This document shows positions 1-59,171 of a DNA stretch of 64,000 nt, piece after piece. The translations under genes and the position numbers were made by a program. Within the stretch, counting starts at the first letter, position 1, and each line of letters opens with the position of its first letter. Under the pieces are notes generated by a model, which did no database searches, was not told the DNA's origin, and saw nothing but the letters and a program-made list of their open reading frames with translations. Origin of the DNA: Brachyhypopomus gauderio (Eukaryota > Chordata > Actinopteri > Gymnotiformes > Hypopomidae); the NCBI RefSeq assembly GCF_052324685.1, contig NC_135212.1:19644048-19708047 (forward strand), in the 5' to 3' direction.

Positions 1-1
1 C

Positions 2-1246
2 AAAACATTTGCAACTTTTGAACAACTAAAAACAAAATTCAATATTCCTCAAATTCATTTCTTCAGATATCTGCAGCTACGTAGCTTTGTATCCACAAAC
101 TGTTCTCAGTTCCCGTCTTCAACCTCATCATTATTAGATACAGTTATGAACACTAACCCACAGATAAAAAAGGTAATTGGTACTTTATATTTGTTACTGA
201 ACACATTCGATACAAAACCCTTGGATGTATTAAAACAAGAGTGGGAGAAAGAACTTTCTGTCAATATATCTGATGAAACGTGGCAAAACATCATAGGCAA
301 CATTCACTCCTCTTCAATATGTTTGAGACACGCTGTAATCCAATTTAAAATAGTTCACCGACTACACTGGACTAAAGTAAAACTAGTCAAGTTCGTTCAA
401 AACATGAACCCAATGTGTAATAGATGTCAAATACACCTGGCAACACATGCACACATGTTTTGGTTTTGTCCAAAATTTACTCTATTTTGGGACTCTGTTT
501 TTAACTTCCTGTCAGGGGTGTTTCACTAGCCGATCCAGCCTTCCCACTTAACTGCAGTGTTTGGGGTGACCCCACAAGGGCTTCATCTGGGGCAAGCTCG
601 TTCCGGGGTAGTGGCCTTTGCTACTTTAGTGGCACGGCGACTTATATTATTAAAATGGAAAGAGAAAAGCCCTCCTACCTTTAAAAAATGGTTAAATGAC
701 TTGATGCAGTTTATAGGATTAGAAAAAATTAGATTCTCTCTGTCTGGCTGCAGTGGTAAATTTAATGCGACCTGGCGGCCTGTTTTGACTTATATAGACA
801 AAATGGACTCTGTTGATTAATTGACTTTCAAATTAACAGTTTGGAGACTATTACATGTGTATGTATATGTGTATGTATTGTGTATGTATATGTATATGTA
901 TGTATGTATGTATGTATGTATATATGTATATATTGTAATTCTGCTGTTATTTATTTGCATCGACTTATGTTTTCCCTTTGCCCTCTGCCTCTCTTGAGAT
1001 ATTTGTTTATTATGATTACAGCACTGATATTCATATATCGTCTATATATGTATGGAGAGACATGACTAAGAGACATGACTAGGGGGTTTAAGGGAAGGGG
1101 GGGGGGGGGGGGTTTGGATTTTTCTTTTTTCTAATTTTCATTCTATTTTTTTTTTTCTCTTTTAGTTTTACTATTGTTCTTATATTTGTGTTAAGTTTGT
1201 TGGGTAATTAGGAAATGCCAATAAAAATACTTTTGTTCAAAAAACC
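2..1246 (+). mobile_element. 3' end of an L1/Tx1-like LINE (ORF2 C-terminus and 3' tail)
   Basis: One frame is open from base 2 to 820 except for a single TAG at 527-529. The translation has the shape of the C-terminal end of fish L1-like ORF2: an FFRYLQLRSF stretch, then a zinc-knuckle-like CNRCQIHLATHAHMFWFCPKF segment (here C-x2-C-x8-H-x3-H spacing), then VAFATLVARRLILLKWK and KKWLNDL. A 3' tail with a TG/TA-rich stretch, a G run (1098-1112) and AATAAAAATAC ending in a short A run closes the element at about 1246. The reverse transcriptase core lies outside the window to the left. The single stop suggests a recently dead copy. Family assignment is by motif memory only. Confidence 0.8.
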
Positions 1247-1427: not shown

Positions 1428-2427
1428 TGACATTGACGACGGAACTAGACCACAGACGATCCATTAGAGAGCGTGGCGGGCTATTTTCAGGTTGAGATGT
1501 TCACCTCTCAGACTAATGGCTTTGACAAGGCCTCCAGAGGCAGGCCACACATTCCTGAATGGGCACCGTGGATTATGATGTTAGAAGTTTACGTGTGACT
1601 TTGAGTAATATTTGTAGGCAGGGCTGCTCAATTAAGATACTGTCGTAAGTGTAGGTTCATCTTCTCTGGCATTGCATGCTTAAAAACACTAGCGCTATGA
1701 TGCAGTACATTTTAAGTCAAAGTTAAATGCCAAAAAATCTCTTTTTACAACAGAGCAGCTTTGCTAATGTCTAGGGCCGGATGCTTTAATGGGCATACCA
1801 GTGTTGCAATGGTGACAAATTGATAAAATTTAAGAAGAAACTTTGGGAAGACCAAGACCTTAGAACCCACCCATCTTGGACAGTGCAGCTTATAATCGGT
1901 CTATTCTTTATTACATTATATATTGTCTGTGTAGTTCAGTATAGGTGTTAGCTGTTCCACTAGAGTCTTCAGATACTTTACACATCCGCCCGGGGATCTT
2001 AAACTCTTGAGATTCCTTGGAGCACTGTCTCCTCTAACAAGACTGATTCAACTCATCAGCTAATTATCAAGTTCTCCTCGAACTGAGCTGAGTCAGGTAT
2101 GTTGGAGCAGGTCAAACACAAAAGATGCTAGAGTCATGGGTCCTGTCGTATAGCTGGAGGACTAGAGGAACCCGCAGAGGCTCAGATTTGCCTTTTATGT
2201 TCATCTTGAATATGTGAGTGTCAGATTGTGCAGGCTCCCCAACCCTGTAGCTTTGTTCCAGTGTCTTTGAAAATGCGAGTGTCGGAGTGTGCGGGCTCTT
2301 CAACCCCGTGTCTTTGTCCCAGTCTCTTTGCTGAGCTATTTTTGCTTTAGTGGAGGAAACTGACACAATCTTTGTGAAGTTGGGCAGATAATAACAGGTG
2401 TTCAGTTTGTATAGTTGGGTGGGGACA

Positions 2428-2620
2428 GTGGCGCAAAAAGGGGGTATGCAGCGTATGCGACGCATAGGGGCGCTGCACAAGAGGGGGCGCCAAATCGATG
2501 TCAGAAAATTATTAGCCGAGTTGGTGTGGGGTGGGGGTGGAGTGTGGGGGGCGCCAATAGTATGTTTGCATACACCTCAGAAAGTATGTAGTTGCAACCC
2601 TGGTTGGGGATTACTTCTAG
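2428..2620. mobile_element. Probable hAT-like repeat fragment
   Basis: The stretch begins CAGTGGCGCAAAAAGGGGG, resembling the terminus of a common fish hAT-type repeat, and continues with GC-rich GGGGCGCC blocks. I see no matching right terminus and no target duplication, so this is a fragment or a misassignment. Confidence 0.3.
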
Positions 2621-2985
2621 AATGGAGCTTAACTCCACTAATTAGTTTGATTGATTTATATGTCAATTATTGTCTTGGAGAGCTCAGCACAGCTTTCTAA
2701 TTTATCAGTACCTGAACTGATTGAATATTCAAATTGTTCTCCAGTAATGTAAATAAAGAGACTGTAAAACTCCATTCTGTTCTGTTTTTATTAAGTAGGA
2801 CTATGTAAATTGTAAATAGAGGTTTAAATAATGATTACGAAAACAAATGTCATAAACTTTAATATAAGTTGAGTCCACAGTTATGTATTAACAAATGTCA
2901 TGCAAATAGATACTAACTGGAGTTCAATATTAAGACATGTAACATATTTAGTACTTTACACTATCTGATGCTTTATTTTCTCTCA

Positions 2986-3091
<106 letters not shown>

Positions 3092-4182
3092 CTAGACTAC
3101 CAAACTCCAGGCAGATATATGGAGTTGCTGCTCCCGCAGCCAGGAGCTCATTACTTCAGGTCAAGGTGACTGGTGAGATAGCCAGACACTTTATCACCCC
3201 ACCCTACTGTGAACCTCTTGGCTGGAACCCAGTCACAACTTCTGAAGGTGCCTTCTTCTGTCCAACCATCTTCTGCTTTCATAAGGGGACACTGCAATGA
3301 CGACCCCAAACACAGACAGAAAGATCCGTTGTCTCCTGTATAATTTTTTATGATTATCCAAGAATCCTTGGGAATTCCCATTTCAGAAGTATGCAGCTGC
3401 TGTTTGGAGTTGATCATTGCAAAGTCTATTCATTCTCCTCCCGTGCGCAATGTCATGTCTGTTACATCTCTAATAAGGGCTAAAATTAGCCTCAGTGAAC
3501 ATGCTGCCTTGTTCTTTGATCTCCCTTGTGATGGTAATCTGGCAGAGTCAGCTTGTGCAACGTCGGTTACGCTTGAAGGGCATTGTCTAATGCACGGTTT
3601 GCAGACCCAATGGATTGTGCACCTCTGTGCAGATTTCATTCAGTTAAAAGTCTACCTTCAGATGGGCCTGCTGTCTTCCTGAGTCCCAGTTCGATATGTC
3701 CACACAGCTCTGGACTGTTGTTTTGATCAAGAGATTTAACCACAGCTACATTTATCGGCCATCATGCTCTCAGTGGAATGTCTAATGGTCGATATCAGGT
3801 GACCACATAAACAGGTTGGCATAGGATGAAACCATAGCGAGTAAACTACATGAACATCACCCATCTCCTCATGTGCTTTCTGAGTGCAGCCACACACATG
3901 CAATATGTGTGTCAGTACTTTCATATGGCTCTGATGTGTCAGACTAGACCATTCTTGTATAAAACAAATAATTCTGCTGTATTCTATTTACGTCTGACAG
4001 CATTCTGTTTTGGGGGCGGTCGTAGAGCTGTTTTAGAAGTTGTGAAGTTGAAGTTATTTTTGCTGGTATGATGGTTATCTCTCTGACACTGGTTTCAGGC
4101 TATTGGGTTTACACTCTCATCAACTTCTTCTTCACTTACATTTTGTCCTTTTTTCTCTCATTCATTTTCTGAGACTGTTCAA

Positions 4183-4241
4183 CACCCCCCCCCCCCCCAC
4201 ACACACACACACACACACCAGACACACACACACACACACAC
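4183..4241. repeat. Poly-C followed by interrupted (CA)n
   Basis: A run of about 14 C is followed by two short CA blocks split by a CCAGA interruption. Confidence 0.9.
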
Positions 4242-5037
4242 TCCACTAAGCATTTGGCCATGGCACGGTGGGGCTCCAACTCTCTGGGAGACAGGTGAAG
4301 CACCCAAGCATTGTGTCTTTATCCCAGGGCCTTCAGCACGGAGGTGCCGCATGTGTTTTTCCCCCTAATTGGGTTGGAACTAATCATGTTTCACCACTGA
4401 ATGGCGAAAGCCCAGCAGAGCTGAGGGACTGTGGCAGGAGCGTGTCACCGTGTCTCCTACATCCTTACGCTGCTATAACAGTGTGCTTTTCTGTTAGCCC
4501 CCCCCACCACCAGGGGGCCGGCTCATTCCCCCATGGGCTCCACCTCTAGCCACTGCACTGCATTATTGTCCTAACAAAGAATGAACCTTGTGTGAGAAGC
4601 TCCAGAATGAGACCATGAGACCACTATGAGACCAACTGTTAACAGAAGTTAACTAATGAACTCTGATGAAAGCAACTGTGTTTTTTTGGGACTCAGAAAA
4701 TCGGGTGTCTAGTATGAGACAGCTAAGCAATACCGTTAGCCAGGTACAAATCTCAGAATGTTCATTTGCGAGGTTAATCTTTGTTCAAATGTGCACATGC
4801 ACCAGAAATATTCTCATGTAATGTGTTCTGCAGAGAATACAGAACATTTTGGATTTAATACAACTGGGATTTGTTGTAGTCCTGTTGTGGCATAAATGGG
4901 TCATATGTGATGTCCTGTTCACTCTTTGATGTTAGTTTCATGGTATACATGTTAACCTTAATCAGCAAGGAACCAACGTTCAGTAGGCAGCTTTCAAAAA
5001 TGTAAATAAAATGCTTTTGGACTGATTCAATTAAGTC

Positions 5038-5115
5038 AAGTAAAGTCAAATTTATTTATATAGCGCTTTTTACAACACATGTTGTCACAAAGCAGCTTTA
5101 CAACATTACACATTC
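5038..5115. mobile_element. Fish interspersed repeat (TTTATATAGCGCTTTT type)
   Basis: The segment AAATTTATTTATATAGCGC followed by CACAAAGCAGCTTTACAA is a very common teleost dispersed-repeat signature. Only the terminal part is recognisable here. A weaker relative lies near 62262-62350. Confidence 0.5.
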
Positions 5116-5410
5116 AACACATGTTACACATTTTCTCAAACCTAATATTAAACCTTTATATATATAAATCATTATATATTATAACATTATGTTACTTTCC
5201 CCTTTAAAATGATGTGAGCATGTCTTAGGTATACATATGGAGTAGCAACCAGAGAGCATGCTCTTAGAGAGCACATGATGAAGGTGATTCAGCAGGTGTT
5301 GGGCTTGTTTTTGTACCATGGCACATACAGGACACTAATGTCTACCCACCCTCTGCTTCCGCCCTCCCTCTGTAAGTAGGCACAGCGCCCCCTGGAGGTG
5401 GGGATCAGAG

Positions 5411-5572
5411 ATGTTAAACATGCTCCCCCATGGCCAACATCACAGGTGCCGGGCCATTGTGGAGCAGCCGGAGGACGACAGAGAAGAGAGAATCCTGGCC
5501 GTTCTGGGGATTATCGGGACTGTGCTCAACCTGCTTGTGGTAATCTTCGTTTACATTTACACGACCATCTGA
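5411..5572 (+). CDS. TUNAR-like single-pass membrane microprotein (53 aa)
   Basis: This ORF has its first in-frame ATG at 5411, a second ATG at 5420 (50 aa) and a TGA at 5570-5572. An in-frame TAA lies upstream at 5336. The C-terminal half reads ERILAVLGIIGTVLNLL followed by VVIFVYIYTTI. As I recall it, this matches the C-terminus of human TUNAR/beta-cell-and-neural-regulin (48 aa) almost residue for residue: conserved LGIIGT-LNL core, FVYIYTT end and acidic stretch (EQPEDDREE) before the membrane helix. The family protein sits in the endoplasmic reticulum membrane, where it is reported to act on SERCA2 and calcium handling in neural and beta cells. The N-terminal residues (MLNMLPHGQHHRCR) look unlike the family, so the true start may come from an upstream exon spliced at the CACAG ending at 5445. 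It lies 12 kb upstream of rasgrp4 on the same strand. Expression is unproven. Confidence 0.8.
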   Translation: MLNMLPHGQHHRCRAIVEQPEDDREERILAVLGIIGTVLNLLVVIFVYIYTTI

Positions 5573-6629
5573 AGAGTGGAGGAGACAAGATGGCCAGACT
5601 GGCCCATCACCCAGAGACCCAGGACCAGAGGCATTTGAGGGGGGGTCAGGGGATCGGGGGGTGGGGGGTGTTGAGAGGATAACAGACTAATGTTGCTTTT
5701 TGTTTGCTAAGTAAACTCATCATGCAGTGCCTGGAACCACTACCATGTTACAAAATCCCCTCACCATTTATGTGGAGAACATCTGTATATTGTTTGAGCA
5801 CTTCCCATTTTAAGGGTTAAACAAAAACTTAGACATTGGATATTTCTGTCACAGTTCAAAGTTTGTTTTTACTGCTGTTATTTATCCACTCAGTTATGTT
5901 GTATATACTTAACCATGAGAGCATGTTGACCAATAATTCCCCATATATTATATTTGTTGATTATGTGAACCTTTCTTGTTATTGAACAGTTTAGTTTTTG
6001 TCATATTTACCTGTAATCCTTTTAGCATAAAGCACAACAGATAGGCTATGGAGTCATGGAACACACAACACACATATTGGTCAACAACATGCCCAAAGTT
6101 GTCTTCAGCTCCAGCTGTTGTATTTACATTATCAGAGGGCCTGGCTTCAACTTTGTTTTTTCAACTTTGAATTGTTCAGACAGCATATTTAAACCTGAGG
6201 TAAACATGAAAATGATGTAACACAGATGAACAACAAACCTAACAGTGATCTTTGGTTTATAATCAGCACTTATTCCAAAACATGTAGCAACAGCAAAAAC
6301 AGAAATAAATCATGTGTAGCGGATGGATATTTATTGACCTTTTGTCATTTCTGTGTAGATCTACCCTGAAATAAAGTTTGAAATAAAATGAACAAAATGA
6401 ATAAAGTTAAAGAAATATTTCCCTATTGCTTTATTGACCATATTTCAAAGACCATATTTTCTTCATTTCAGTAGTTTCTTTTTTTTTCTACTTTCAATTT
6501 TATTGCCATTAACACACATTGATAGGCACTTAACATTATGTAACAAAAAATAAATAAATAGGAAATTATTTTTTTAACACCTTGAGATTGGGTTTCACTT
6601 AAAAGACAAAAAATATTTAACATACATTT
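5573..6629. other. AT-rich region downstream of the TUNAR-like ORF
   Basis: No further coding signal is seen. This is probably the 3' part of the TUNAR-like transcript followed by intergenic sequence. Possible AATAAA-type signals occur at about 6303 and 6370. TUNAR transcripts are long and mostly non-coding in other vertebrates, so transcription over this stretch is plausible but not shown by the sequence. Confidence 0.35.
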
Positions 6630-6905
6630 CAGGGCAGTCATGTCCTGGTGGTAGGGAACTGGTCTTGTGACCGGAGGGTCGTGGGTTCGACCATGGGTTC
6701 AGGCCATGACTGAGGTACCCTTGAGCAAGGCACCTAACCCCAACTGCTCCCCAGGCGCTGGGCTAGGGCTGCGCTCTGCTCTGGGCACGTGTGATCCACA
6801 GCACCCTAGTAATCACTAGTGTGTGTGTGTGTGTGTTCTAACTGCACAGATGTGTTAAAAGCAGAGGACAAATTTCGATTGCGGTGTAAAAATCACAATT
6901 GACAA
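6630..6905 (+). mobile_element. tRNA-derived SINE
   Basis: The head carries RNA polymerase III box-like elements: a box-A-like TCCTGGTGGTAGGGAACTGG and a box-B-like GTCGTGGGTTCGACCATGGG. The body holds the central domain CCTTGAGCAAGGCACCTAAC, widespread in fish SINEs. A short (GT)9 tract and a tail ending TAAAAATCACAATTGACAAA follow. The family name cannot be fixed from sequence alone. Confidence 0.8.
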
Positions 6906-7344
6906 AATATGGCACACACAGTAGTTTCTTATAAGGTTTACATTCTAATCTCAGATTAAAGAGAATGTCTTTACACTTTCTTTCCCAGTAAAGAATGAAA
7001 ATGCTAAATGAATGAATCAGACCCCACTGCTTTGGTTTGAAGGCTTGTTAGCATTCCTCTCATAAAGCATCTAGGTCAATGTTTCCTGAATTTTTTCTAT
7101 TTGAACTAAAAGACACTGCCTTCCGCTCACAAGGATAATATTGCACAAGCAAGACAGCGTCTGAAAGAATGAGAGCAGACACAATGTCATTTCCCCTCCT
7201 CTCATCCACTCATCCTCTCATCCGCTCGTTCACAAACGAGAATGACAAAGAGGGAGATGGAAATGAGAAGAGTGGTGGTTATGAGACTCCAAAAGGGATG
7301 AGAGAGCATGACACCATCTGCTTTTCTTGTAGATTCTGACCCTG

Positions 7345-7433
<89 letters not shown>
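7345..7433. repeat. (CA)n microsatellite
   Basis: About 44 CA units. Reading frames through it in both directions are artefacts of the repeat. Confidence 0.97.
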
Positions 7434-7437
<4 letters not shown>

Positions 7438-10019
7438 TTGTCTGGTTTGGTCTGCTCCTTTTCATGCCTATCTAAGAACAGGTCCTTTATTTCTGCAGAA
7501 CTTTTTACTGATATATGAAGTGTGACTCTTTTAAAAGAGAATGCTGTTGTTTAACTCTTGATTATCGCACCACAGCGATCAATAGAGGAGTTGGACAAAA
7601 ACACCATCGTACTTCCTGCCCTCAGGATGCAGAAAAGACAGATGACATCACACTGATGTGTCTGAGGCAGCTTCAGAGGGGAGAGCTGGGTACAGCGTAG
7701 AAGGCAAATACAACACGGTCTGTTGCTGTTCCCAGTAAACACAACCATCCTGGGCTCTGAGAGACATTGTTACACCAAGACGGAATGAAGGTCCTTGTCA
7801 GAAAACTCTGCAGAAACAAATCCTTAAATTACTGCATATGTGCTTATACAGTGTGTTAAACCTGCATCTGTATGGGAGCATGAGAGTACATTACACCTCC
7901 ATCTGTATTGGAGTATGAGAGTATGTTAAACCTGTATCAGTATGAGAATATGAGAGTACGTTACACCTCTATCTGTATTGGAGTATGAGAGTATGTTGAA
8001 CTTGCATGTGTGTGACATCATGTAATTTCCCTAAATGGTACAATAAAGCCCAGATCTTTTTCAGGTTGCCAATAAAATAAAATAAATAAATTAATTAAAT
8101 GATGTCCTCTCAGCTGCCCAAATGAAGGTAATGTACCAGACACAAGCAAAAACAGGTCCACCAAAACACGCTATTCACAATGAGAGGCACACTTAAGTGG
8201 ACCTTAAGTGGATTTGGGATACTTTAGGATACTTTAAATTAAAATAAAATAGTTTAATTAATCAGTCAATCCTCTATTCATTTGTTTGTAAATCATTTAA
8301 GCTACAGCAATCATAATTTGACCCAGTTCTTATTTACAAAATGAGAATATAGTTAATGATTCAGTTTCTATAACATCTAGGCAAAGCTTTTTCCACAATG
8401 GTGTTTACCTGAACTTCTGTGCTAAATTAATGCTGTATATGCTAAATTAATACTATGCTAATAAATTCTATAATAAACCTAACACATACTAAATATTTAC
8501 TGTATGTACTCTAAATTATTACATTTCTCTTATTCTTTAAAGATCAAATAACATGATTTGATTGAATTCAAGCCACTGCACAGAAAAATAATTTTGATTA
8601 GTCCTAAAGCCGAGCTTTTGGAAAGCTGTTTCCCATTGTTGGTCCACAGTCTTGCTATTTTCAGAGTAACTTTCTTAAATTCCATTTCTTAAGTTCCATT
8701 CTCCCACTCCCAGAACCTCGACACAAACCCAGCCTTGTTAATGGGTGGCTCCAGATGTTGCTTTCTATTGGCCACGGTTCTGTGACCCAGTTTTTGTTGT
8801 TATTTTTGTTGTTGTTGTGTTTGTTTGTTTTTTTTCTGTTTTTCAAAAGCTTACCCAACCAACACATCCACCTAGATGCCTCAGTGGTCAGGTTGGAAAG
8901 ACAGGAATACTTGTGAAAGGCCAGCATGTCAGTTCTCTGCTACACTGGCCCAAAGCAAACTAGATACTAGTCTAGAGTCGAGACAGGTGGAGATAAAAAC
9001 TCCTGCTGTGTTTAACACTTTCCCACTGGAAAGCAGTCTTGATGTATAATCTGTAAACTCACTTTGGCGCTTTTTCGAAAGGACACTTTTTAGTATCAAC
9101 TGCACTTCATAAAAGGTGTGCAGATGAATATTTCATTCCTTTTGCATATATAAATTGCATGTCTAGAATGAACATTCTCCGTCTGTCTAACACTTGGGCT
9201 GATGTGTACATTCGCACACAGACATGCAAACATTCACACTTTATATGTCTCTGTCGTTTCCTGTAGTGCATATGTACACACATGTACACAGGAGTACACA
9301 CACCTACTCTTGCTGAGCACAAGTCCTGCTTCATTATGAAGGCAGGAACCTCCCACAAGCCCAGCACAAAACCATCCTCTCCTTTTGTGACTGGACTATA
9401 AAAAGCACATTGAGGGGAGAAAAAAGGCCAGGAGAGGGAGAGAGCACATAAGCCTTCACTCAGGACTGAACCCGTGCACAACGCCAGTGTTTGCAGCAGG
9501 CATGCGTCCTCTTCACTGTAAAGATTCGGACCTATTTCCAAGTTTCGTCAGTACAGTTGGAGCAGATGGGGAGGTTACGTTTCAGTTTATTTTGATGAGG
9601 ATTTGATGAAACAGTGCTTTTAATAATGATAATGGGTGCAAAATTGGGAAATTCGGTTTACTTTTGTAGCACCGTTCATAGCACCATTTTATTATGGTAT
9701 TACTTTGTGTTTATTGTTATTTGTAATGTAAATATTTTGTCAAGAAATTAATGTTATGAATAAAAATTTAGTTTTGACTAGAGACAGGCAGAGTCCCACT
9801 ACAGCCTCATCCAGACACATGAGAAGACTCATCAAATTAAATGTTATTCAGTGTAAATTCCAGACTATGAAAACAGTTGGCTGTGGATGGGGTATAGATT
9901 AAGATACAGTTACTGTAACTTGAAACATCCCTTTGTGAATGAGGTAGATTAAGATACAGTAAGCTTTAAATCCCTCCATTGCCACTCAGTACTGTGCAGC
10001 CCCTGACTCTTTCTGTTTT

Positions 10020-17581: not shown

Positions 17582-30859
<13,278 letters not shown>

Positions 30860-37200: not shown

Positions 37201-40200
37201 TATAATTACTTTTTACGAATAAACGTATTTGGATCATAAAATATTTGAAGCTGTGGTCACTTAGGCAATGTGTAAAAGTGCAGTCAGCCTTTAAGGTGCT
37301 TCAACATGCAAAACAGATGGACTCATTTAATGTGTTTTACGGCCATATTTCGAGCTGTTTTAGGGATAATGCAAGATCATTTCACCATTTCAGAATGTTA
37401 GATGTGCTCCAAAACCTACTTGGCTCGTTAGCACTCACATAAACAAACAAACAACCACACGTGAGAAAGCACAACATCATTTACTCGGATATGGAATTGG
37501 AATGATGGCCTTGCTGCACGCCCTTACACACTCACTGACGCGCTCTTTAACTGCTGCACGCCCTTACACACTCACTGACGCGCTCTTTAACTGCTGCACG
37601 CCCTTACACACTCACTGACGCGCTCTTTAACTGCCCTTTTTGTCTGCAGCAGACGTGTTAGGAAATCTGTCTCTCACTCTGCTGGTCAGAAAGTCCCGCA
37701 CATTGCGGGACGCTCCCCTTTCGCCCCGAGAGCCATCCGAGCTGGTGTGCATCACCCGCTCCTCGCTCCTGAGAAACCACACTCCTGAAAACCAGGGCTC
37801 CGTTGTGGTCTGACCAGCTCCTGCTCATCCGCGTCAAGATGGACGTGATCCATCATGAAGTTAGAAGAACGGAGACCTTGCCATTCCCAGCAGTGCTCAG
37901 TGTGAAGCAAGGCAGGGAACGCCAGACATCTAGGGACCGTTCTGAGGTGGAGGGGGACGGCCTGTCCCTCGTGATGACTGTGACAAGGCCATTAGACGGA
38001 GTGGTTAAGGTAAGATGTTGTGCAGCACCCTGACGGGACTGTGTCCCACAGCCCATCAAACTCCTCCCTCATCCACCGACGCTCCGCCTCCTTTTCCTCC
38101 ACTCGGTCCTTATGAGTCTCTTGTTCCTTCAGCTGGTATTTCAACGCTTTTCCCATCTCCCACTGTCATTTTCAGGGTCATTTTCAGACATATCAAGGCG
38201 CTGAAACGTAAACAACATGCATAACTACAATTGTGGACAGAGCGGTGAGGCTTTGATGTTAAAAGTCGAATCGTAAATGCAGTCCGCATCTCCTAAATTC
38301 AGCAGGCGTTTACCTCCTTTGATGGGTTTTGGTCCCACAAACAGTTGTTGCAAACACTGAAAATTAAATTTAATACATATTAATTTATTTCATCATGTTA
38401 CTGAATTTAAAAGGTGAACATAAAAAGGAAAAGAAATTCAAAAAACACCTACTAAAAGTCCTCTCTGATGGCTGCACAAGGACAGTACATCTGGATGGAC
38501 AGTGTAAAATACTGCTCTGTGTCAGAACCGTTGTTTCAGGGGACTGAAGAGTCTTGTTTAGCTAAGAGCTCTATTTAAAAGAATCCAGACGGTTGAGTTA
38601 AAAGATTTACTGACCGAACGGAGACCGGGATCCACGTTCAGTCAGGGTCAAGCCTGTGACAACTCTCGGTGTTCCGGGACATCAACCACACCTCACCTAA
38701 CCTCTCATCATGAAGTCGGAGACGAGAACACACCGCTGGAATCACACCTACCATCGCTCTATTCAGAGGTATTCAAATCACGGTCCTCAGGGTTCAGCTC
38801 AGATTTTCCACCCTCCCTTTATCTAAGAGGCAGGAGTAATGACAAAGTGGCCAACCAGTTACATGAATAATTTAATCAACTGCTAGAGATCTACAAAATC
38901 CAGGACCAGATTTGGATTTAAGGTCCAGATTTGAATACCACTGTTCTAGGTGCACACAACATGCCTCACAAAGGCAAAAATCATCATTAGGACATTGCGT
39001 TGATCCTGAGTAACATGAGCTGCAAGATCTTCGTTAAGGTCAAGGAACCTCCTTAAACCTCCATGTAAATCTTGTTTGAGTCACGGTGTCTCATTACAGT
39101 AAGAACAATACAACATTTACAGGGTTGTTTGTTAATTTATTTACATATATTTCCATCCCAAATGTGACAAACAGGTAAAAGTAAACAGCAGAATACAAAC
39201 CACAAGATATGGGGGGGATAGATCTCCAGTTATGAGCACCAACAGGTTGACCTTTGTACATCGTACTACTTTTTATAACTATCAATAAGAGGTTATTCAT
39301 TTCCCATATTCATGAAGCAGTCAATATGGCAATGTTTTTCCAGGTATTAAATGAGCCCATTTGTATAGCATATTAAGGGATATTTAATTACAAAGAGAAA
39401 GGTTCTCCAGTCAATATAATGGTGTGATGCTTACCTTCATCTTCTCCATGATGGCGTTGGTACCAAGGATGTTGTATTTCTTCTCAGGGTTCATCTCTGC
39501 ATGTTTGGTGGCCCACGTGGTTTTTCCACACGCAGGCAGACCGACCATCATCAAGATCTGAAACAAAGGCACCGTGGCTTTAGAAATGCACCCCCAGGAC
39601 TTTTTACAATGAATCAATGGCTGGACTTTGGCACCTCTAGTTGTACTTTTGTGAGCTCAGTTTCCCAGTGTGTGCATGTTCATGCACACATGCAGGTAGT
39701 AAACGTGTGCTGGCAGTAAAAACGTCTTCCAGAAGGTTTCCAGAGAAACTGGACGTTTCAGAGAGGAAAGTTCGTCTGAAACTGGGTTTACTGGAGGTAA
39801 ACCCAGTTTAACCTCATAGATCTTCAGAAGCATGGTGCTTTCACATGTGATAAAGACATTTGTCTGAAACATCCTATTTCTCTGGAAACATGTATTACTT
39901 ATCACCAATTTACCAAGTAAGCAAACATTTGTAGTAATACAGACCTCACAATCAGCCTTGTTAGCAGGGCCGAGGGTGCCTCTGGTCCTATCCTCCATTG
40001 CCACGGCCTGGATGAATGTGTATTCCTCTGGTGAAGGGAAGTAGGGCTCCCCCTTCTGGCCAAAGTTAAATTCTACAGCACAGTTCTTGACCAGGACATG
40101 AGGGAAGAGTGCTCGACCTGCCAGCTCCTCCTTAGTGGCCCGGAACGCCACACCAAGCCACTTCCCATTCTTGGAGAACGCAATTTCCACGTCCTCGTTG

Positions 40201-42425
40201 CTATCAAAATCCTAAAAGAAACATGATCTGCATTTGTAGCTGCCATCACCGAATAATATCTAGGACTGCAAATGATGAATTTGACTTTAGAATCCCAGTG
40301 CTACTCACAACATAGCAACCAATGACATCGTTTTCACCAAACTTCTCTCCATAGTCTTCAAACCTGCAGTTGGAGGACTTTTTGCCAGTTCCGCCATACC
40401 CATAGGAGAAAGGCTCTTCTCCTGTATGAATAAGACAGTCATCTCATGGAATGATGGGGGTGAATAAATTTGATACAGCTCCGGTCGGTTGTGCAACAAC
40501 CATTTCATTTTCACAATGACATACAACAATCTCACTCACTCTTGGTACTGACAAACTGCAGTTCTGCTGGAACTACAAACTTTTTTCTACTACTGCATTC
40601 TTATACCTCATTTACATATTGGCAGAATCTTAACCTACACATTTTTCCCAGTTTACATTAGCAATAAGAGTGCATGATTGTATGGGTGTTTATTTTACCG
40701 AGCTGTGTGCTGCAGGAATCCAGAGACCAGCCCACTCTCACCACATGTGGGTCAGGCTCACCGCTAGGAAGGTGCTTAACTGAGATCTCTTCTGTTATCT
40801 GCACACAGACAAAAAACATTTCTCCACTGTATATTTTTTCTTGTCCCAACCTAAATCTGATGTAGCCCAATTTCAACAACCGCTCCTGCTGTATTGTCTT
40901 AACTGGTCAGAAGTCATTACCTTCATCTCGTAGCAGACACGACCCTTGCTCACACCATAAGTGGCACGTGCACCAGACCACAGGTAAGCAAAGCCCTCAA
41001 TGGTGAGAGGGTATCCACTGTACCGGTCACGGGAGACTTTGAAGTGCAGGTCACAATTATCTATAAAAGTACATGTAAACAGAGCCTTATGTAATCTTTA
41101 TTACAGCCTCATACATGCGTGTTACAGACATTATAACTGGCCATGCGAAAATTCAACCGACTGCCTTCTACGAAGTAACAAAGAGAACTGCACTGACAAG
41201 TATCGATGGCTACCAGCGTGTCATCAAAATCCTCCTCTTCTTCTTCAGCCGGGGGCTGAGGCGAGCGTGACCTGCAAAGCGAGCGCAACGTCATCGCTAG
41301 CAGAAACGACAAACGACACGTATACACACACGATGCACCACGGGTCCATCGTTAACTCAACCGAACAACAGTCGCAATCCTCACGGTTAGCTCAGACAGG
41401 GTCTGCTGTGCGTAAAGCCTGCTGCTGCGACAGACATGCGAGCGGCTACGCCCGCAGCCGCCACCGTTACCTCTTGTCCTCTCGATGCTCGTAGTAGCCG
41501 TAGCCGTGCGCCTCCTCGTAGTGCCTCTTGCGGCCGTAGTGCGCGTGGCTGTCCTGCTGGGATCTGCAGTGGGAGGCCTGGAGAGCCTCGGTCTCCTGCC
41601 ACTCGCAGGATTCGCCCTGTTCCTCCTCGAGCTTCTCAACAACCTCCTTCACCCCCACTTCTCCTGGCGCTTCTTCTTCTGTGGGGGCAGCACGTTTGAA
41701 CTCATGTTAACACCCTACGTGTGTTCTTTACATTCTTGCCAAAACAAAAAAGCTACCTGAAGAAATGTGTTTTAACATGTGTGCTGTATTTATATGCAAG
41801 AGAACTGATAACATCAGACGTCATACTGGCATCAACGTTTTCAAAACGTCGTTTTGCACGCGTTACGGAAACGCAGTGCTCCACACACCCTGACCTTCTT
41901 TGTAAATAGGCTGTGCCTCGATTTCAGGTTTGACTTCAGGTTCTTCTACCATTTCCATCTTGGGCATGATAACTTCTGCAACACTGCGATCTGTGTCAGG
42001 GATTGATTCCGCCTTATATTCTTCAGTGTGAGGACTGTTGTCTTCCCGCTGTGCATGGTGAGCCCCCTCTTCATAGCTGGCCTCTTCAGCACCTGTCATC
42101 GCACCACAAAATGATGTGCTAGTGTCCATTATGCAATTGTGCCCCATAAGGACACACAAAACAGGGTCATTTAACCAAAAGTAACATAAAACACGTGCAG
42201 AGAGCCAAAAGGGTTTATTAACGTACCCGCCTCTGCAGTATCTTCAGGTGTAAGCTCCTCTCCAGTTCTTCCTGGTAGTCCAGCCCTCCCATCTGGTACC
42301 TCCGTGTCCAGAGCAGCTCTCAGCCTGTCCACCAGGTCCGCCTTCAGCCCACGGGTGTCCAGCCCTCTCTTCTGCAACTCCTCTTTCAGCTCGTTGACTT
42401 TCAGTTTCTTCACGTCGATATCCAT
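32761..42425 (-). CDS. hnrnpul1: Heterogeneous nuclear ribonucleoprotein U-like 1, 15 exons, 814 aa
   Basis: Coding exons (minus strand, 5' to 3'): 42227-42425, 41895-42092, 41471-41678, 41198-41271, 40921-41060, 40699-40798, 40309-40421, 39945-40211, 39435-39557, 36518-36646, 35108-35276, 33896-34168, 33243-33391, 32979-33161, 32761-32880. Phase is kept to the TGA. Domains: SAP DNA-binding (3-37, [20 protein letters not shown]), acidic linker, SPRY (about 225-405, [26 protein letters not shown]), P-loop kinase-like domain with Walker A GLPACGKT at 439-446 and [23 protein letters not shown] box (about 618-715), and a G/N/Y/Q-rich prion-like tail (665-814). The family acts in the nucleus in RNA processing, transcription and DNA-end resection with MRN. 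HNRNPUL1 fits better than HNRNPU or UL2 ([14 protein letters not shown]). The human protein is 856 aa. Intron 13 has a GC donor. Confidence 0.96.
33162..33242 (-). other. GC-AG intron (hnrnpul1 intron 13)
   Basis: On the minus strand exon 13 ends AGCCAG and the intron starts GCAAGTATTG, a canonical GC-donor context. It ends CATCTAG before GGATACAACC. The length is only 81 bp. The frame is continuous across it, joining GYSQ to GYNQ in the glycine/tyrosine-rich tail. Confidence 0.85.
34220..34290 (-). repeat. (GA)n, a CT tract before hnrnpul1 exon 12
   Basis: Read on the gene strand this is a (CT)35 tract about 50-120 nt upstream of the exon 12 acceptor (exon edge 34168). It acts as, or extends, the pyrimidine tract and is a typical binding ground for PTB-type proteins. 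Confidence 0.9.
34801..34829. repeat. Homopolymer run of 29 G
   Basis: Uninterrupted poly-G on + (poly-C in the hnrnpul1 pre-mRNA) in intron 11. Length is likely to vary and to be assembly-sensitive. Confidence 0.9.
37511..37630. repeat. 40-bp x 3 tandem repeat in hnrnpul1 intron 9
   Basis: Three units containing TGCTGCACGCCCTTACACAC and TCACTGACGCGCTCTTTAAC. Only the first base of the first copy differs. The high identity implies a recent duplication. Confidence 0.97.
38768..38939. mobile_element. Short DNA transposon relic with terminal inverted repeats
   Basis: The left end GGTATTCAAATCACGGTCCT and the right end AGGTCCAGATTTGAATACC are inverted copies with two mismatches. The 172-bp element lies in hnrnpul1 intron 9 and has no coding capacity. 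Confidence 0.7.
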
Positions 42426-42471
42426 TGTGTGGGGTGGGCTGGAGGAGTGTGTGTTCCGCTAGTCTTCCCAA

Positions 42472-43939: not shown

Positions 43940-45172
43940 TTAGTGTTTAGTGTCATTTGTTGCTGGGGCAGGTGGAAGAGACAGCAGCAGTCTATTCAAC
44001 TCCCGGATCTGAGCATCTAGAGTCTCTGTGGCCAGAGCGACCTCCCCGAGTTGGGTCTGCAGACTGTTGATGGTCTCTGCTAGTTCCTCCTCCTTACGCC
44101 TGGAGTTTGCAGCCTGCCGACTGTACTCAAGGACCATGCAACCCCCACCAACGAGGAAGATGATGGCCTCGCCGAGCAGCTCGGCCCCAAGCTCGGCGGC
44201 TGCCTCCTCGTTCAGAGGCTTGATCGTAGAACCACGGAACCCCATGATCCTCATCTTGGTCCTCATTTCAACCCAGTGGTACACTTTGAATGAGGAAAGA
44301 GAAGATTGCAGGTGTCTTACTCTGAACTAAATTTCGGTGGAACACTACATATTGATCTAGGGTTAGTATTGCACGAATCAACACAACAGGGCAAAACAAG
44401 CAGTGAGCATAACATCATTTATAATATCTGAAATAAGACACAATGATGCTAAAGGGTCTATTAAAAATATTCAGAAAATAAGTAGTATATCACTAGATAG
44501 ACTATTTGTTTAAAAATCCTATGACATATATTCAGGGTATTGAAAAGTGTACAGATTGTCAGTAGCCTTCAAACTTTGACGCAAATAAAATAATGATTGC
44601 AAATTTTTTTTATGATGCGTGTAACTCCACGAAATAGTATAATGATCAGAAATCTGTATGGTGTATAACGACCAAGTATAAAAGAATAGAAAATTGGGCA
44701 ATGTCAGAATTTGATAGAAGGCACTTTCAAACGCTCCAATGCTCAATGACAGCTTGCTACCGCCCCCTCCGAATGACAAAACTCTTATTGGTCGGTTTTG
44801 GTCTTAAAGGGCACACCTTTTGGTTCTTTATTGGACTACGAGTAAATCTATCATTATAGGGGTTCAACAGTAACGGCTTACCACTCAAGGCACGTTTATG
44901 ATTGGTTAAACAATGCAATGTGTAAAACGCATTGGCTACATGTTGTAGTTCCATCAAATTCTACTTCCGCCTGTTCGCAGCCTTTAGCTGTTGGCACACA
45001 CGTATTTATACTGTAGCAAACACAGCTTACCTTGTGCCGGGGGAAGGCATACGTAATTTTTGAAGAATTCACTTCTCCGTGCTCCTGCTTTGATCCTGTT
45101 AGCTATTGGTTTGCTTAACTGACGAACGCCCAGATAGAGCAGCTTTGCAATGGGAAAAGCACCTACAACCAT
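43940..45172 (-). CDS. opa3: OPA3, mitochondrial protein, 2 exons, 161 aa
   Basis: Exons: 45031-45172 (start codon at 45172) and 43940-44283. They are joined at donor CACAAG/GTAAGC and acceptor TTCAAAG/TGTACC, giving [15 protein letters not shown]. The N-terminus [20 protein letters not shown] is the conserved mitochondrial-targeting and membrane-associated start of OPA3. The second exon carries [28 protein letters not shown], a hydrophobic [14 protein letters not shown] segment and a C-terminal coiled-coil-like region. The family protein sits in mitochondrial membranes and affects mitochondrial shape and lipid metabolism; human defects cause optic atrophy and 3-methylglutaconic aciduria. The two-exon structure is as in human, and the protein is slightly shorter than the human 179 aa because the tail is shorter. 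No alternative second exon was recognised. Confidence 0.96.
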
Positions 45173-58006: not shown

Positions 58007-59171
58007 GACCCCCCTGCACTGTGCTGCCTCCTGTAATGACCAGGCGCTGTGTGAGTTTCTTGTGCGTAATGGCGCTGCTGTTTTGGCTGTGACTGAGAGT
58101 GACGGGGCAACGGCAGCACAGAAGTGTGACCCATTCGCACCCGGCTATGAGGAGTGTGAGAGCTTCCTCAGAGGTGAGGACACAGCACGTGTAGCCCCGG
58201 ACACAGGACACGTAACCTTATATCTGTGTATAGATGTTTATGTTAAGTAATGCAATATGACTTACCTAACATAAGTTTGGCTTTGGTCCCAAAGTCGCAT
58301 ATACAAATTTATACAAAAATATATGTATACATTTAATTTGTGGAGATTTCTTTGTGTTGATAATTTGCTTGTCCCTGTGGGAAAAAAATTAGGCATTTTT
58401 GCTTGTTTAGTTTTTATTAGATATGCAAAATGCAAGATTGACTCAAACCAAAAGAGTTAACAGCTGTATTTATGGTCTTTGATGTTAAGGATATGATTAG
58501 AGTGTAGACATAGCTGTATCCATTTTGGGTAATGTATACTTCAGAGGAAAATAACAGTTAAGTTAGTAATATAAGGGTGTGTGTGTGTGTGTGTGTGTGT
58601 GCGTGTGTGCTGTCAGGAGTGGAGGAGGCGATGGGAGTGGAGAACAGTGGGGTGCTGTATGCTCTTTGGAGTTATCCGGCCCAGGCTCCTGATGAGCTGA
58701 GCTTCAAAGAGGGCGACATGGTGACCATCCTGCAGAAACCGGAGGCGGTGAACTGGTGGTGGGCCTCCCTCTGTGGCAGGGAGGGCTTCGTCCCAAACAA
58801 CTACTTTGGGGTAAGGGAACACACTTAAAGAGGTAGCAAGACAGTTCTCAGACTTAGGTAGTCTATAACACTGTGCTTGGATGCTAAAAAAAAAGTAAAT
58901 TGTCTGTGAAACTAGTTTTAGATGCCAAGTTGGGTAAATACTAGTTTAAATAAAATATGGCTTGACGAATCATGTTCAATAGCATTTTGTTCAAGCACAC
59001 TTTCACTAGCATTACATTTTAAAGAAGCATTTTGCAGCACACAGTGGCACAGAGCTAGATCGTAACGATTCTGAATGCTCTCTTCAATTTGATTTAAAAT
59101 GTGTCTGACTTTTTTTTCACTTTTTTCCATGGTAGCTTTTCCCCAAGGTGCGGCCTAAGTCACTCTGCTAG
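53531..59171 (+). CDS. ppp1r13l: iASPP, RelA-associated inhibitor, 12 coding exons, 784 aa
   Basis: Coding exons: 53531-53561, 53774-53886, 54319-54832, 55177-55269, 55418-55497, 55820-56177, 56437-56921, 57037-57186, 57289-57422, 58007-58173, 58617-58810, 59136-59171. Phase is kept to the TAG. Order: short N-terminal coiled-coil-like segment ([19 protein letters not shown]), long Ser/Pro-rich region ([29 protein letters not shown]), PLSPTRLQP and IPRALKRR, the PP1-docking variant RARL at 581-584, ankyrin repeats (about 585-700; [29 protein letters not shown]) and an SH3 domain (about 718-775; [40 protein letters not shown]). RARL, rather than the RVKF of ASPP1/2, and the [10 protein letters not shown] block identify iASPP. 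The family binds p53, p63 and RelA in nucleus and cytoplasm and restrains p53-driven apoptosis. The first exon ([10 protein letters not shown]) is supported only by ATG, donor and phase. The human protein is 828 aa. Confidence 0.93.
55502..55547 (+). repeat. (GT)n in ppp1r13l intron 5
   Basis: About 22 GT units begin 5 bp after the donor GTAGG of the 80-bp exon ending at 55497, so the microsatellite overlaps the donor context. Confidence 0.97.
57430..58004 (+). repeat. Compound (GT)n array with TAATGGTGACTG spacers, filling ppp1r13l intron 9
   Basis: Blocks of GT are separated about nine times by the spacer GTAATGGTGACT, with GTAT variants between. The array occupies nearly all of the intron from the donor GTGAGGCT (57423) to the acceptor GTGTGTAG (58006), so the AG of the 3' splice site directly follows the repeat. 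Long CVCV/HTHT reading frames here are repeat artefacts. Confidence 0.97.
58576..58610 (+). repeat. (GT)n before the SH3 exon of ppp1r13l
   Basis: About 16 GT units with one GC interruption end 6 bp before exon 11 (58617), leaving only TGTCAG as acceptor context. Confidence 0.95.

Follow-up and report, generated by a model that had tools for sequence, protein, structure and literature searches.

A likely third TUNAR-family gene, encoding a predicted 53-residue membrane microprotein, in a 19q13-type block of Brachyhypopomus gauderio

The window analyzed here is a stretch of 64,000 nucleotides (C2:19644048-19708047) from an assembly of 797 Mb in 840 contigs. It contains a 53-codon open reading frame that we consider likely to make up the translated portion of the terminal exon in a genuine protein-coding gene of the TUNAR family, the third member in this genome, with the origin and mode of action proposed below. 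It is a new gene of an already known family.

Family membership and copies in the genome

The frame runs on the forward strand from an ATG at 5411 to a TGA at 5570-5572, and its translation is MLNMLPHGQHHRCRAIVEQPEDDREERILAVLGIIGTVLNLLVVIFVYIYTTI. Coordinates, strand, and length agreed exactly with the original prediction. When the peptide was compared with Pfam, TUNAR (PF21954) was the only family listed to E 10 in a search whose filters drop most weak matches. Residues 20-53 scored 58.3 bits (E = 7.1e-16) against a curated cut-off of 27 bits, which bore out the description of the peptide as TUNAR-like. The motifs LGIIGT, LNL, and FVYIYTT, which had been named as part of its helix, were all found and are identical in the copy on contig C17; the acidic stretch that had been noticed ahead of the helix is EQPEDDREE. 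The alignment covered positions 15-48 of the 48 in the profile and was thus not full length, leaving residues 1-19 of the peptide outside the match. Because the N terminus is variable among the copies described below (that of the C9 copy is unmatched there too) and the cut-off does not require it, the window ORF is classed by its sequence as a TUNAR family member without the status of a TUNAR orthologue. A PDB sequence search with the peptide gave five weak matches to E 10 (best E 0.045), none of them to TUNAR, and a scan of viral contigs yielded 58 pattern-matching stretches and no relatives.

A six-frame profile scan of the whole genome, in which 11 candidates were scored and six matches listed, gave three matches above the TUNAR cut-off, on C17 (86.9 bits), on C9 (65.0 bits), and in the window (57.0 bits, E = 1.7e-12). 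Those below the cut-off lay on C6 (22.2 bits), C3 (16.8 bits), and C11 (16.2 bits, E 9.37); the frames read at C6 and C3 were both low-complexity runs of IYIY. A protein search of the genome to E 10 led to three places: besides the window itself, there was one on C17, at 73% over 33 residues, and one on C9, at 71% over 35. The ORF had been proposed as a possible second fish copy; the search for further copies in the same genome replaced this count with three, the window copy being the third.

The ORFs on C17 and C9 comprise 48 amino acids each. The C17 ORF matched the TUNAR profile from end to end (1-48, 88.7 bits) and is for that reason regarded as canonical tunar, and the C9 ORF matched positions 14-48 (66.7 bits). 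The window copy, the most divergent of the three by profile score, is 67% identical to C17 and 69% to C9 over 36 residues; it differs from both in its length of 53 residues. The same difference holds against mammalian TUNAR, for which excerpts of PMC6886504 give a coding sequence of 48 amino acids. In an alignment of the three copies, 24 of 53 columns were invariant, 22 of them within the C-terminal 30 residues. The start M-[LV]-N is common to all, and the translation start itself seems to have been kept. Beyond it, the N-terminal 19-23 residues of the window peptide are unlike TUNAR, in keeping with the N terminus of its own that had been predicted. None of the papers listed in searches of the open-licence PubMed Central literature dealt with TUNAR paralogues; entries named "protein TUNAR-like" may already be present in annotation databases.

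Table 1. Positions of features in the window
Feature	Position	Strand	Basis and remarks
Candidate splice acceptor AG	5378..5379	+	Equal alternative AG at 5375-5376; exon start 5380 or 5377
TUNAR-like ORF, 53 aa (coding sequence including stop)	5411..5572	+	Pfam PF21954, genome copies, codon test, alignment
Membrane-helix core (residues 28-46)	5492..5548	+	Best hydrophobic 19-mer, mean Kyte-Doolittle 2.81; AlphaFold2 helix
Candidate poly(A) signals AATAAA	6304..6405 (starts 6304, 6370, 6382, 6400)	+	Presumed end of the terminal exon; two more follow
RasGEF exon of RasGRP gene	26770..27162	+	Pfam RasGEF 47.8 bits; PDB RasGRP1 122.8, RasGRP4 105.9, RasGRP2 85.1 bits
SAP-domain exon of hnRNPU-like gene (SPRY exon at 39657-40211)	42171..42458	-	Pfam; presumably hnrnpul1
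OPA3 exon	43940..44326	-	Pfam OPA3, 91.1 bits
SH3 exon of PPP1R13L (iASPP)	58562..58828	+	PDB RelA-associated inhibitor 91.5 bits, above ASPP2 75.6

Chromosomal neighborhoods and origin of the copies

Ten neighboring frames of the window were scanned against Pfam, and six were named (Table 1): the RasGEF and C1 domains of a RasGRP gene (C1 below its cut-off) and the SH3 exon on the forward strand, and the OPA3, SAP, and SPRY exons on the reverse strand. The other four, and both of two further window frames, yielded no name. In human, PPP1R13L, OPA3, HNRNPUL1, and RASGRP4 lie in 19q13, and the content of the window (RasGRP, SAP/SPRY, OPA3, and PPP1R13L) upheld the proposal of a 19q13-type rather than a chromosome 14-type block. 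The ORF had further been said to adjoin rasgrp4. A RasGRP gene is indeed present, but RasGRP4 was not its best match in PDB, the top scores being those of RasGRP1 and RasGRP2. The former led for the RasGEF exon, and for another exon RasGRP2 scored 43.6, RasGRP1 42.8, and RasGRP4 39.4 bits. RasGRP3 was not among the PDB matches of these exons, and one further frame had no match in PDB; rasgrp4 is therefore a candidate name, suggested by the neighboring genes. The window also carries a long minisatellite at 19973-21258, which has open frames in several phases and a 26-residue stretch of repeat translation.

In contrast to the window copy, the C17 and C9 copies were found in 14q32-type neighborhoods, again by human gene positions. 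Within 200 kb around the C17 copy, a receptor ~42 kb downstream had the B2 bradykinin receptor as its best match. Of eight further frames, four were named: one belongs to a TMEM151 gene ~42 kb upstream, and the others are SPATA7, an exon of a tyrosine phosphatase, and a further receptor of the rhodopsin type. The remaining four yielded no name. Judged by eye, the phosphatase would be PTPN21 and an unmatched frame KCNK10. In human, SPATA7, BDKRB2, and PTPN21 lie in 14q31-32. Three tandem bradykinin-receptor-like GPCR frames lie downstream of the C17 tunar (2027-9127 of the piece of C17 read there), and the first of them, the one searched, matched the B2 receptor. GLRX5 (83 bits), whose human counterpart neighbors TUNAR in 14q32, lies about 11 kb ahead of the C9 copy; among the longest frames listed, the rest of the ~50-kb C9 stretch was mobile-element- or repeat-like by eye or unassigned.

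As the C17 and C9 copies reside on different contigs beside different 14q31-32-type genes, they look like a teleost-duplication pair, and we infer that they are the two descendants of a chromosome-14-type TUNAR. The window copy, which lies in a 19q13-type rather than a 14q32-type block, is thus a third copy and probably predates that pair. Judged by its neighborhood and the human map, it would descend from an earlier duplication, most likely in one of the two whole-genome duplications early in vertebrate history, to which the 14q32 and 19q13 blocks are also due. In line with this, the closest match to the window's RasGRP gene, among six RasGRP matches in the genome (C2, C17 twice, C1, C165, and C18), is on the contig that holds canonical tunar, C17, at 14.1 Mb and with 60% identity. 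With HELP domains (EML family) as a further paralogy marker, none of 13 matches fell on C2 or C9, a result neutral to or against an early duplication. Besides canonical tunar, C17 has RasGRP matches at 14.1 and 18.3 Mb and accounts for four of the 13 HELP matches; by human gene positions, it perhaps unites 14q-, 2p-, and 15q-type genes. BIRC6 was uninformative as a locus marker here, with two matches on C66 and neither on a TUNAR contig. Zebrafish megamind appears as linc-birc6, a matter of naming only, in excerpts of PMC3877055 and PMC5300904; the idea that it might represent a copy of the 2p type was abandoned, as no evidence supported it.

Coding constraint and exon structure

The last 36 aligned codons of the three paralogues of this genome were subjected to a codon test in which substitution types were preserved and sites randomized. 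The window and C17 copies differed at 35 nucleotides (11, 5, and 19 by codon position), causing 12 amino-acid differences versus 20.4 expected; one of 20,000 random replicates was as low, and dN/dS was 0.28. Between the window and C9 copies there were 37 nucleotide differences (10, 5, and 22) and 11 amino-acid differences versus 21.3 expected, with no replicate of 20,000 as low and a dN/dS of 0.09. The comparison of C17 with C9 gave 35 differences (8, 2, and 25) and eight amino-acid differences versus 20.7 expected (0/20,000). The amino-acid differences of the window pairs thus amounted to 52-59% of the random-substitution expectation, a null that is somewhat high because replicates containing stops were kept (11,980 for window-C17, 12,929 for window-C9, and 7,696 for C17-C9 of 20,000, i.e. 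60-65% in the window pairs) and stops were scored as amino-acid differences. The dS values of the window pairs were 1.07 (C17) and 2.76 (C9); in two of the three pairs, silent sites had come close to saturation or gone beyond it (dS 2.76 and infinite), C17 versus C9 being saturated.

Stretches of ~3 kb from each locus were compared by blastn at E 0.01. One match linked the window and C17 loci, covering 87 bp at 79% (about 5479-5565 of the window), and a single one of 89 bp, at 75%, linked C17 and C9; neither extended beyond the coding sequence. No match was obtained between the window and C9 at this threshold, although the other two pairs did match, so DNA similarity gives no ranking of the three. 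A peptide conserved amid unalignable DNA is, as far as sequence can tell, the look of an old coding gene.

The candidate acceptor AGs before the window ORF (Table 1) are preceded by 20 nt with pyrimidine fractions of 0.75 and 0.80. They lie 34 or 31 nt before the ATG, whereas in both the C17 and C9 copies an acceptor-like AG stands exactly 39 nt before it. Translated, the 39 nt read GLRGKLLTTSEK at the C17 locus (1417-1455 of the stretch read there) and GFRRRLLTHHRK at the C9 locus (1426-1464); they are similar as peptide, and the two frames are 62.9% alike over 62 residues including this part. For mammalian TUNAR, excerpts of PMC8758570 describe an isoform of 65 aa that is longer by 17 residues at its N terminus. 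The peptide similarity suggests that a long N-terminal isoform of this kind may be translated from the two 14q32-type copies in fish too. The window copy differs in phase, so that such an extension is not evidently kept in its exon, and the 65-aa isoform described in those excerpts has no evident counterpart there. No 5' exon was recognized among the longest frames read in the 10 kb upstream of the window edge, which were retroelement-like, simple repeats, or unassigned. Copia-like frames on the reverse strand (3900-6900 of the upstream stretch) and LINE-like frames on the forward strand (7275-10000, continuing into window 1-820) were named by eye. A bacterial promoter scan, which is not meaningful in a fish, found nothing.

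These features bear on whether the window copy could be a real TUNAR gene of younger date, namely a duplicate of one of the other two genes, C9 or C17, that is restricted to teleosts or to one lineage and was moved into the 19q13-type block by translocation or as a retrocopy. We regard this as unlikely. The upstream retroelement-like frames belong to elements that can carry or break synteny, and the stretch before the ATG is unlike that of the other copies and in a different phase (31 or 34 nt versus 39). However, blastn similarity outside the coding sequence was nil, synonymous divergence of both window pairs is high, and the Pfam score of the window copy is the lowest of the three; against a retrocopy in particular speak the pyrimidine tract and the acceptor-like AG directly before the ORF. 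Decay of a TUNAR paralogue into a pseudogene, with the frame still open by chance, is very improbable: the diverged N terminus, the five extra codons, and a profile match beginning only at residue 20 would fit it, but all 53 codons are open, substitutions are strongly biased to silent ones at a large total divergence, and the helix residues are retained in the alignment. A chance hydrophobic ORF imitating the TUNAR helix can practically be discarded, for although the stretch is short and hydrophobic and weak false matches of that sort exist in the genome (C6, C3), the window scored 57-58 bits versus at most 22.2 for matches below the cut-off and is constrained at the codon level.

Predicted topology, function, and significance

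Reading the ORF as a third TUNAR-family gene, we considered what its product might do. A single-sequence AlphaFold2 model of the peptide (mean pLDDT 79.8, pTM 0.45) contained one helix, residues 22-52, with block-mean pLDDT values of 95-98 for residues 31-53 and 57-64 for residues 1-20. Hydropathy and model both point to a single C-terminal transmembrane helix, and as only seven residues follow the stretch 28-46, the shape is tail-anchored. TUNAR/pTUNAR/BNLN resembles the window peptide in its single C-terminal helix LGIIGT-LNL-FVYIYTT (profile match above), in the acidic stretch before it, and in a C terminus a few residues past it. The regulins (phospholamban, sarcolipin, and myoregulin) and DWORF are, in excerpts of PMC8758570, short single-span ER proteins acting on SERCA. 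The likeness of the window peptide, known from its sequence, to these proteins is one of size and single span; no sequence relation is claimed, and the regulin motif xLFxxF given in the same excerpts is, judged by eye, absent from the window helix ILAVLGIIGTVLNLLVVIFVYIYTTI.

By analogy with TUNAR, the window peptide probably regulates calcium pumping at the ER membrane, which it would span once. It would be inserted into the endoplasmic reticulum membrane via its C-terminal helix with the acidic N terminus in the cytosol, the conserved helix would touch the SERCA calcium pump, and calcium handling would be altered as by mammalian pTUNAR/BNLN. As the helix is the conserved part, the same partner is proposed for the window peptide, with the cytosolic part differently tuned; the changed N terminus, histidine-rich and five residues longer, would adjust partner, regulation, or tissue. 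For the mammalian protein, excerpts of PMC8758570 describe ER membrane localization, co-precipitation of pTUNAR with SERCA2, and faster removal of calcium from the cytosol upon overexpression, which the authors read as SERCA2 activation. An excerpt of the review PMC12733331 states that BNLN lowered ER calcium, and the two accounts thus conflict in sign.

TUNAR may be a family from the early vertebrate genome duplications, and we give about even chances to its consisting of a 14q32-type branch, kept twice here, and a 19q13-type branch with a different cytosolic N terminus, the latter regulating the calcium pump separately, with a partner or tissue of its own. If true, the 19q13-type branch could hide in other vertebrates, being too short for annotation. 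If the two additional copies sharing this helix are present in zebrafish too, redundancy would offer an explanation for mild mutants. The copies would then also provide a natural experiment on whether the constant helix or the variable N terminus sets the regulation of the pump.
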